From positions 34,204-98,203 of the forward strand of contig VGAL01000002.1 of NCBI GenBank assembly GCA_016870715.1: DNA of 64,000 nt, in the 5' to 3' direction. Under the pieces are notes generated by a model. It was not told where the DNA came from. It worked only from the letters and a program-made list of their open reading frames with translations, and did no database searches. Of the stretch, positions 49,473 to 52,034 are shown in pieces (position 1 is the stretch's first letter; the number at the start of each line of letters is the position of its first letter). A program made the translations under genes and the position numbers. Source of the DNA: Actinomycetota bacterium. Lineage in GTDB: Bacteria > Actinomycetota > Actinomycetes > Nanopelagicales > Nanopelagicaceae.

Positions 49473-50795
49473 TTATCTACTCTCTCCAGAAACATTTCCT
49501 GGCGTCTGTGATAAAAGTACCCGAAGCATCGCTGGTCGCTTACCTTCGACGCTCTCAACCAACAACTGACAACCTTCCAATTCAATAGCATCCCCCACTT
49601 CGGCGATTCGCCCCAGTTTATGGGTCACCAATCCACCGATACTTTCATACGGTCCTTCAGGGAATTGATAATTGATTTCATTGCTGGCTTCTGAGAGATT
49701 CGTTAAACCATCAATATGGAACTCGCCAACGTTTCCCTCGCGCACTTCGTCAATTTCATGATGGTCATATTCATCCCTGATATCACCGACAAATTGTTCA
49801 ACTAGATCCTCGAGCGTGATAATGCCATCTGTCCCACCATATTCATCGACCACAATCGCGATATGTGAGCCATCCGCGCGCATTTTTGAGAGCACCGGTA
49901 AGAGTTCACGAGTGCCCGGGATAAATTCAATTGTTCGAACGAGGTCTCCTATTCGAGTTTGGCGCTCATAAAGTTCTGGGTCGAGAAGATCGCGTACGTT
50001 GATAAATCCAATAATGTCATCAAAGGATCCTTTGACTACTGGATACCGTGAATGCCCAGTTTCAATGATAATTTTCACCGCTTGTCCGACAGTCAATTCA
50101 CTATCAAGAAAATCTACTTCTGTGCGAGGAACCATGATCGAATGGATCTGGCGATCGCTTGCTTCAAAGACTTCCTCGACAATCTCCTTCTCGGCGTGTG
50201 TGAATGCATGATGTCCACTAAGCAGGTCAATTAACTCTTCCTCGCTCATTTGTTCTCGGGCAGCTTTAGGATCAACGCCAGCGGCGCGAACGAGAAGGTC
50301 GGTTGATTTTGAGAGTAACCAGATAATTGGTCGGAACAATCTGGCAATAACTTCGACAACCCCTGCACTTGCTAACGAGATTGGCACTGCGCGAACAATC
50401 GCAATTCGTTTCGGAGTCAACTCTCCGATAATCAAAGAGATATACGCGATGATTAACGTCAATCCAATAAGGGAAACCAATTCGGCAGCGCTCGTGCGTA
50501 GCCCTAGATCTTCAAGGAATGGAATGAGGTATCGCCCTAAACGCTCCGCGCCAATGGCGGCAGAGAGAAAACCAAAGACGGTAATTCCCACCTGAATCGC
50601 CGCGAGAAAGCGGTTCGGGCTCGCGGTGAGCGCAGCCACCCGCGCCCCACGCTTACCTGTTCCCGCCATCTGTTTGATCTGAGACTCCCGAAGGGAGATC
50701 AGGGCTATCTCAGCGGCTACCAGGAAGGATGAGAGGGCTATTAAGGCAAGGACGATGGCGATATCGCCAACCAGTTCCCCTACAGAGCCCGCCAC
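49473..50795 (-). CDS. HlyC/CorC (CNNM + CBS) transporter-associated protein
   Basis: DUF21 membrane domain; VPRTEVDFLDSELTVGQAVKIIIETGHSRYPV; VDEYGGTDGIITLEDLVEQFVGDIRDEYD. Confidence 0.94.
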   Translation of the reverse strand: MAGSVGELVGDIAIVLALIALSSFLVAAEIALISLRESQIKQMAGTGKRGARVAALTASPNRFLAAIQVGITVFGFLSAAIGAERLGRYLIPFLEDLGLRTSAAELVSLIGLTLIIAYISLIIGELTPKRIAIVRAVPISLASAGVVEVIARLFRPIIWLLSKSTDLLVRAAGVDPKAAREQMSEEELIDLLSGHHAFTHAEKEIVEEVFEASDRQIHSIMVPRTEVDFLDSELTVGQAVKIIIETGHSRYPVVKGSFDDIIGFINVRDLLDPELYERQTRIGDLVRTIEFIPGTRELLPVLSKMRADGSHIAIVVDEYGGTDGIITLEDLVEQFVGDIRDEYDHHEIDEVREGNVGEFHIDGLTNLSEASNEINYQFPEGPYESIGGLVTHKLGRIAEVGDAIELEGCQLLVESVEGKRPAMLRVLLSQTPGNVSGESR

Positions 50796-50819
50796 CGCTC
50801 AAGGGTAGCGAAATGGAGG

Positions 50820-50945
50820 CGGACGCGCTCTGGAGACTTCCGCAGAGCCCCTATTTCAGGTACTTTCTCCCCGTCCTCATCCGAGGATGACCTATCTCCA
50901 ACGGATCGTCCGGCACGTACCTGCCGGGAGAGGGAGCGAACGCTC
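50820..50945 (+). ncRNA. Structured 5' leader of msiK-like gene; probable msiK RNA motif
   Basis: Four successive inverted repeats GCTCTG..CAGAGC (50827-50848), TCCTC-ATCC-GAGGA (50874-50887), CCGGCA..TGCCGG (50910-50927), GAGCG-AA-CGCTC (50934-50945) ending at the ATG; long intergenic region in an otherwise compact genome. Confidence 0.65.
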
Positions 50946-52034
50946 ATGGCAATTGTTGTATTCGATAAAGCAAGTCGTACCTATCCAGGTACCACCCGTC
51001 CTGCAGTAGACCAACTTGATCTCGTCGTCAATGACGGAGAGTTCCTCGTGCTTGTTGGCCCATCAGGTTGCGGAAAGTCAACATCCCTTCGAATGCTCGC
51101 AGGACTTGAAGATGTTGATACCGGTTCTATCCGTATCGGCGATCGTGATGTCACTCATGTGGCGCCAAAAGATCGCGATATTGCGATGGTCTTCCAGTCT
51201 TATGCGCTTTACCCACACATGACTGTGGCAGAGAACATGGGCTTTGCATTGAAGATCGCCGGAGTAAATAAAGATGAGCGCGCACGTCGCGTTCAAGATG
51301 CGGCAAAGTTGCTCGATCTCGAGCCTTACCTCGCGCGTAAACCAAAGGCGCTCTCTGGTGGACAACGCCAGCGCGTGGCTATGGGTCGCGCAATCGTTCG
51401 CGAACCACAGGTCTTCCTCATGGATGAGCCGCTATCAAACCTCGATGCGAAACTTCGCGTCGCTACCCGTACCCAGATTGCAGCGCTACAGCGCCGCCTC
51501 GGAATCACCACTGTCTATGTGACTCACGATCAAGTCGAAGCTATGACCATGGGTGATCGTGTAGCAGTTCTCAAGGATGGTCTCCTCCAGCAAGTAGATT
51601 CCCCACGTAACCTCTATGACAAGCCAGCAAATGCATTCGTCGCTGGATTCATCGGCTCTCCTGCGATGAACTTGATCACTGCGCCTGTATCCGGTGGCCA
51701 AGCTTCACTTGGTAACTTCAAAGTTAGCGTTCCTGCATCCGCTGGCGCATCGGCAATCGTCGGTGTTCGCCCAGAAGGCTTCAAGCCAACCGGAGCTGGA
51801 CAAGGCTTTGATATCAAGGTCGATGTTGTTGAAGAGCTCGGTTCTGATGCGTTCGTCTATGGAAAGCCTGTCGCATCGGGTATCTCCCTTACCAATGCCA
51901 GTGCAGAAGAGGGTGCTCAAGTCATCGTTCGTTGGGATCCAAAGAATCCACCGAAGGCTGGCGACACTGTCTCGGTCACTGCAGATACATCTGCAGTACA
52001 CGTCTTCGATGCAGCATCAGGCAAGCGCCTCTAA
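50946..52034 (+). CDS. msiK: Multi-sugar ABC transporter ATPase (MsiK/UgpC/MalK type)
   Basis: GPSGCGKSTSLRMLAGLEDVDTGSIRIGDRDVTHVAPKDRDIAMVFQSYALYPHMTVAENM; LSGGQRQRVAMGRAIVR. Confidence 0.92.
   Translation: MAIVVFDKASRTYPGTTRPAVDQLDLVVNDGEFLVLVGPSGCGKSTSLRMLAGLEDVDTGSIRIGDRDVTHVAPKDRDIAMVFQSYALYPHMTVAENMGFALKIAGVNKDERARRVQDAAKLLDLEPYLARKPKALSGGQRQRVAMGRAIVREPQVFLMDEPLSNLDAKLRVATRTQIAALQRRLGITTVYVTHDQVEAMTMGDRVAVLKDGLLQQVDSPRNLYDKPANAFVAGFIGSPAMNLITAPVSGGQASLGNFKVSVPASAGASAIVGVRPEGFKPTGAGQGFDIKVDVVEELGSDAFVYGKPVASGISLTNASAEEGAQVIVRWDPKNPPKAGDTVSVTADTSAVHVFDAASGKRL

Follow-up and report, generated by a model that had tools for sequence, protein, structure and literature searches.

The open reading frame at positions 50946-52034 of the window, the 64,000-nucleotide stretch of DNA that was analysed, was typed as MsiK/UgpC by NF008653, as had been supposed in a sequence-only reading of the same DNA. 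It is preceded by an intergenic gap of 150 nt (50796-50945), beyond which a membrane-protein gene is divergently oriented. The length given for this gap in that reading was correct, but not its description as the longest in the window, since a mechanical call of the open reading frames, crude as it is and with a longest gap that is an artefact of overlapping frames, shows several gaps of more than 150 nt. The source genome is small (1.41 Mb, in 86 contigs), as also presumed, and contains one copy of the msiK RNA. The features of the locus are as follows.

49473-50795, minus strand: gene for a CNNM/CBS (CorC/HlyC-type) membrane protein, divergent
50827-50848, no strand assigned: hairpin 1, an inverted repeat of 6 bp with a loop of 10, upstream of the -10 box and not conserved in sister genomes
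50861-50866, plus strand: likely -10 box TACTTT of the msiK promoter (sequence; clustering of TANNNT in the own family)
50872-50889, plus strand: P0, stem-loop CGTCCTC-ATCC-GAGGATG 5' of P1, not in the Rfam model (fold, positional stability, covariation, distance from the -10 box)
50883-50941, plus strand: msiK RNA, Rfam RF01747 (cmscan, 61.2 bits, E 1.5e-12 for the window)
50891-50898, plus strand: 5' strand of P1, CCUAUCUC (anti-Shine-Dalgarno), with one bulged A (50894) (Rfam structure, pairing by eye, P1 covariation in relatives)
50899-50909, plus strand: 11-nt bulge CAACGGAUCGU, many of its bases near-invariant (conservation in 155 leaders and 80 named loci)
50910-50927, plus strand: P2, hairpin CCGGCA-CGUACC-UGCCGG (strands 50910-50915 and 50922-50927, loop 50916-50921; Rfam structure, covariation)
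50928-50934, plus strand: 3' strand of P1, GAGAGGG, containing the 5' part of the Shine-Dalgarno sequence (Rfam structure, covariation)
50932-50936, plus strand: Shine-Dalgarno sequence GGGAG, 9 nt 5' of ATG 50946 (sequence)
50934-50945, plus strand: P3, small hairpin GAGC-GAAC-GCUC adjoining the ATG (in the centroid fold; weakly supported beyond the own genus)
50946-52034, plus strand: MsiK-type ABC ATPase of 362 amino acids (NCBIfam NF008653, 460 bits, cutoff 432; Pfam OB_MalK and TOBE_2 regulatory domain)

The leader of the ATPase gene is a genuine member of the known msiK RNA family. The RF01747 model was matched over its full length (1-60) with 61.2 bits against a gathering threshold of 33, and no other RNA family reached its Rfam cutoff in the 64-kb window. 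The 3' end of the motif lies 4 nt before ATG 50946, which confirms its position as a leader. As in the family described by Weinberg et al. (2010, PMC2864571, available text), for which there is a sequence and structure model, a hairpin with an 11-nt bulge and covarying basal and apical stems is found in front of an MsiK-type ATPase gene of Actinomycetota, and the 3' strand of the basal stem carries the ribosome binding site (GGGAG at 50932-50936 overlaps the P1 strand at 50928-50934). The core shows no differences from the family. The window leader differs in that P0 is added beside P1, the first nine positions of the Rfam model being unpaired, and in the bulged A that is carried by P1 in the own family; P1 of the window leader consists of seven pairs with A50894 bulged out. 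The locus is mostly explained already by an RNA of known kind, and what is extra is the P0 stem. Both the assignment to this family and the remark that its function was unresolved, made in the sequence-only reading, agree with the model search and with the literature found (PMC2864571, available text).

The motif was present in all 36 own-family relatives of a first draw and in 182 of the 201 genomes of a larger one (96 of the 99 of good quality), covering all 17 genera. No match was seen in the good-quality own-family genomes G498, G510 and G609, which could reflect incomplete assembly, hits removed by the filters or true loss. G552 is the only own-family genome listed with two copies (L150 and L151), which are near-identical, lie at contig ends and are probably an assembly or strain duplication. 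In a sample of the phylum, at least 38 of 397 genomes of at least 90 % completeness contained the motif, a lower bound because strict filters were used. Scanning of named genomes with a sequence pattern yielded 80 records that could be read, from genera that include Streptomyces, Arthrobacter, Microbacterium, Bifidobacterium, Kribbella, Rhodococcus, Micromonospora and Dermabacter. In 79 of these the motif was directly before an MsiK reading frame, and the one remaining record breaks off at this point.

Covariation of the core was assessed in 31 distinct leaders from outside the own family, with shuffled and slid structures as controls. Double changes were found at 8 of the 13 pairs of P1 and P2, and 91.6 % of cells were able to pair. 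The covariation score of the two helices was 0.276, compared with 0.147 after shuffling (reached in 0 of 500 shuffles) and at most 0.149 for slid structures. P2 was 100 % paired in these relatives, with C-G, G-C, U-A and A-U exchanged at its two outer pairs. A candidate pseudoknot between GGA of the bulge and UCC/ACC of the loop involves near-constant bases, which leaves covariation without power there.

The P0 stem, undocumented and common to many relatives, is the one new point and is well supported; the available text of the original description names only the bulged hairpin (PMC2864571). When 30-nt windows along dereplicated leaders were compared with their dinucleotide shuffles, a sharp minimum of the folding z score was found exactly beside P1, with a mean z of -1.51 ± 0.15 in 66 own-family leaders and -0.98 ± 0.13 at the same position in 96 leaders of other Actinomycetota, whereas windows 40 nt or more upstream had z near zero. 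Windows of 36 nt agreed (-1.74 vs -0.04 for the control in the own family, -1.63 vs -0.27 in the others). In tetraloop-type P0 hairpins from own-family genera, held in a fixed alignment, double changes occurred at 5 of 6 pairs and the covariation score was 0.98, compared with 0.23 after shuffling, and in a MAFFT alignment of longer P0 segments the score was 0.71 vs 0.16. The segments with tetraloop-type hairpins were chosen and trimmed by hand and are biased towards structure, so that the positional profile against shuffles is the fair test of P0. A first MAFFT alignment of the P0 regions was not structural and was left out of the counts. P0 is usually separated from P1 by 0-3 nt, and it is not universal, a hairpin of -4 kcal/mol or better being absent from 10 of the 66 own-family and 16 of the 96 other leaders. 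In several genera the loop is often AACC, closed by C-G (e.g. L002, L009, L010 and L022; ATCC at 50879-50882 in the window), and the stem sequence changes completely between genera in which this loop recurs.

The 5' base of P0 lies approximately 7 nt downstream of a TAnnnT box. Of the 58 TANNNT boxes in own-family leaders, 35 have their end 5-10 nt upstream of this base, as would be expected if P0 formed the first bases of the transcript, and another 16 are scattered across a range of 35 positions, 15 to 49 nt upstream. The box TACTTT at 50861-50866 was not recovered by a sigma-70 consensus scan. Judged from these distances, transcription probably starts at about 50872, i.e. upstream rather than downstream of the motif. 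The msiK leader is transcribed in C. glutamicum and C. diphtheriae (PMC3890552, PMC5784534), and in C. glutamicum a leader of 90 nt has been mapped that starts 29 nt upstream of the msiK motif (PMC3890552), a stretch with room for a P0-like stem.

In the sequence-only reading the leader was described as four tandem hairpins, the last of which would block access of the ribosome. All four inverted repeats are present (50827-50848; 50874-50887, 5 bp, extending to 50872-50889; 50910-50927, 6 bp with a loop of 6; 50934-50945), and the region contains eight perfect stems of at least 5 bp, compared with a mean of 2.0 in dinucleotide shuffles (P=0.0075). They do not form one leader, however: hairpin 1 is absent from sister genomes and is probably not transcribed, since it lies upstream of the likely -10 box. 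The second, third and fourth repeats correspond to P0, P2 and P3, and the basal helix P1, which pairs with the Shine-Dalgarno sequence, had been overlooked. The fourth, read as GAGCG-AA-CGCTC, has a stem of 4 rather than 5 bp as RNA (GAGC-GAAC-GCTC), because a loop of 2 nt is impossible. P3 overlaps the last base of P1. It is kept in 5 of 5 own-genus leaders, and similar hairpins of the form GAGN..NCTC-ATG are also seen in some further genera, but they are absent from most own-family spacers. P3-like hairpins were found in 13 of 74 distinct leaders, with 7.0 expected from shuffled spacers, and P3 was rejected as a conserved occluder of the ribosome, being lineage-specific at best; it may add to occlusion of the site in some genera, but is not the mechanism of the family. 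Of the earlier proposal, translational control appears likely, and the checks named for it went in its favour: the model search gave a hit, homologous leaders covary, and the likely start site is upstream of the motif. The family-wide occluder would be P1, which covers most of the Shine-Dalgarno sequence, not the last hairpin.

Single-sequence folding of 207 leaders gave a median pairing probability of approximately 0.5 for P1 and a mean of 0.84 for P2. In the window leader the probability of P1 was 0.36, P1 was absent from the minimum free energy (MFE) fold, in which the Shine-Dalgarno sequence is mostly outside P1, and overall stability was unremarkable (z -1.04). The fold obtained for the entire gap (50796-50960, z 0.05) was dropped as carrying no information, since part of that DNA is probably outside the transcript. 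P1 alone is thus predicted to be only marginally stable, in a calculation which leaves out tertiary contacts and cannot demonstrate switching; a helix poised rather than locked over the ribosome site would be what a switch needs. The same fold, with the Shine-Dalgarno sequence largely out of P1, would also suit a constitutive element of translation or stability that fixes MsiK output and does not switch. Hairpins at the 5' end are well known to stabilise mRNAs, and P0 would fit that role, but the near-invariance of bulge and loop across distant families exceeds what a stabiliser needs, and a leader without any switch appears very improbable.

No intrinsic terminator was found on the plus strand between 50750 and 51000, and terminator-based attenuation was rejected on this ground. 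Taken with the structure and its covariation, this makes it quite probable that P1 occludes the Shine-Dalgarno sequence. We propose, at roughly even confidence, that the leader acts in cis in the translational control of a multi-purpose sugar ATPase, with P1 over the Shine-Dalgarno sequence and free MsiK as the likeliest binder. Transcription would begin at about 50872, P0 being made first and P1, bulge and P2 after it. Closure of P1 would pair most of the Shine-Dalgarno sequence and stop translation. A binder resting on the conserved 11-nt bulge and the hexaloop would close P1, and with no binder the site would be open. When many induced permeases draw MsiK into membrane complexes, the leader would open and more MsiK would be made. 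This direction of the switch is what the arrangement suggests, and that free MsiK is the trigger is a conjecture to which we give slightly less than an even chance.

Feedback by MsiK was proposed in the original description, in the available text of which glucose is reported to have no effect on the msiK RNA (PMC2864571). In a Streptomyces, every proteome data set from xylose, xylobiose or xylan showed enrichment of the MsiK protein (PMC12772271). The level of msiK mRNA was almost unaltered in a cebR mutant with overexpression of cebE and cebF (PMC4890002); coming from different species and conditions, the two together only hint at post-transcriptional control. Feedback by MsiK fits best because msiK is the sole target, the motif marks shared ATPases, glucose was without effect, and the protein was enriched while the mRNA hardly changed. 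A small-molecule riboswitch, whose bulge and hexaloop would bind a sugar, a sugar phosphate or another signal of carbon state so that P1 closes and translation is blocked, would agree with the compact, near-invariant unpaired block and the marginal helix pairing the Shine-Dalgarno sequence, a layout shared by many small riboswitches. It is nevertheless rather unlikely, given the single gene context (79 of 80), with no occurrence here before catabolic or permease genes, the service of the ATPase to many different sugars, and the reported lack of a glucose effect (PMC2864571, available text). The sequence-conserved bulge and loop would suit any RNA-binding partner, and some other protein or a trans-acting RNA might close or open P1 in place of MsiK; no candidate is known, however, and it would have to exist in all Actinomycetota that keep the motif, genomes of 1 Mb included, which makes such a partner quite unlikely.

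Riboswitches that sequester the Shine-Dalgarno sequence include preQ1 and SAM-II. The window leader resembles them as a small conserved element whose closure would hide this sequence, and differs in having no Rfam match to them and a single gene context. Ribosomal-protein leaders are autogenous elements of translational control, in which the free subunit represses its own mRNA over the ribosome site. The logic proposed for MsiK feedback would be analogous, a free subunit of a shared complex repressing its own mRNA, with the difference that the putative binder is an ABC ATPase with an OB_MalK/TOBE domain.

With a profile derived from the 16 permeases of the source genome, eight pairs of ABC sugar-type permeases were located in it (contigs C9, C15, C19, C29, C40, C42, C53 and C54). 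No ABC ATPase frame was found beside them in the stretches taken, of which several are from short contigs where neighbours may have been missed, and the only ATPase over the UgpC/MsiK cutoff was that of the window. A second MalK-like ATPase (G000:C6:32146-33132; 330 bits, below the UgpC/MsiK cutoff) is accompanied by two permeases and a binding protein of its own, and lacks an msiK RNA.

The association of the motif with shared ATPases was assessed in 45 UgpC/MsiK-type ATPases over the cutoff from 29 genomes, those with no same-strand permease within 3.6 kb being counted as free-standing. The motif preceded 18 of the 45, 16 of which were free-standing, whereas 23 of the 27 without it had a permease nearby (Fisher p=1.1e-6). 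Both kinds of ATPase occur within single genomes (G054, G249, G055, G368, G117, G056 and G043). On a protein tree the motif tracks the MsiK clade, with three changes compared with 17.2 after shuffling (24 motif rows), and some motif-less, operon-bound members branch within this clade. Since the motif follows the MsiK clade, the association is strong but comprises few independent events; it is confounded with ancestry and may come down to one or two ancestral events. That the two-part leader, P0 with the bulged P1-P2, senses the pool of free MsiK and matches the shared ATPase to the permeases in use, being retained with a shared ATPase and lost once the ATPase is dedicated to one operon, is offered as a tentative and somewhat doubtful extension of MsiK feedback.

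The question at stake is how cells fix the level of a single motor subunit that many sugar importers share. Since 2010 the msiK RNA has remained an orphan motif, for which P0, the near-restriction to free-standing ATPases in this sample and the predicted marginal P1 give a concrete and testable model. If true, the leader would be a central control point of carbon uptake in actinobacteria whose small genomes combine a single ATPase of this type with numerous sugar permeases.

Free-standing members without the motif were found in G106, G424 and G052. In G106 (L319, 3800-4060) the leader of the free-standing MsiK gene reads CACTCGG followed by TGAAGGGA, the entire P2 hairpin and half of the bulge being gone between two CGG repeats, as if excised by slippage, or as if a stable hairpin had been lost in sequencing. 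The motif is retained in the sister genome, G271.
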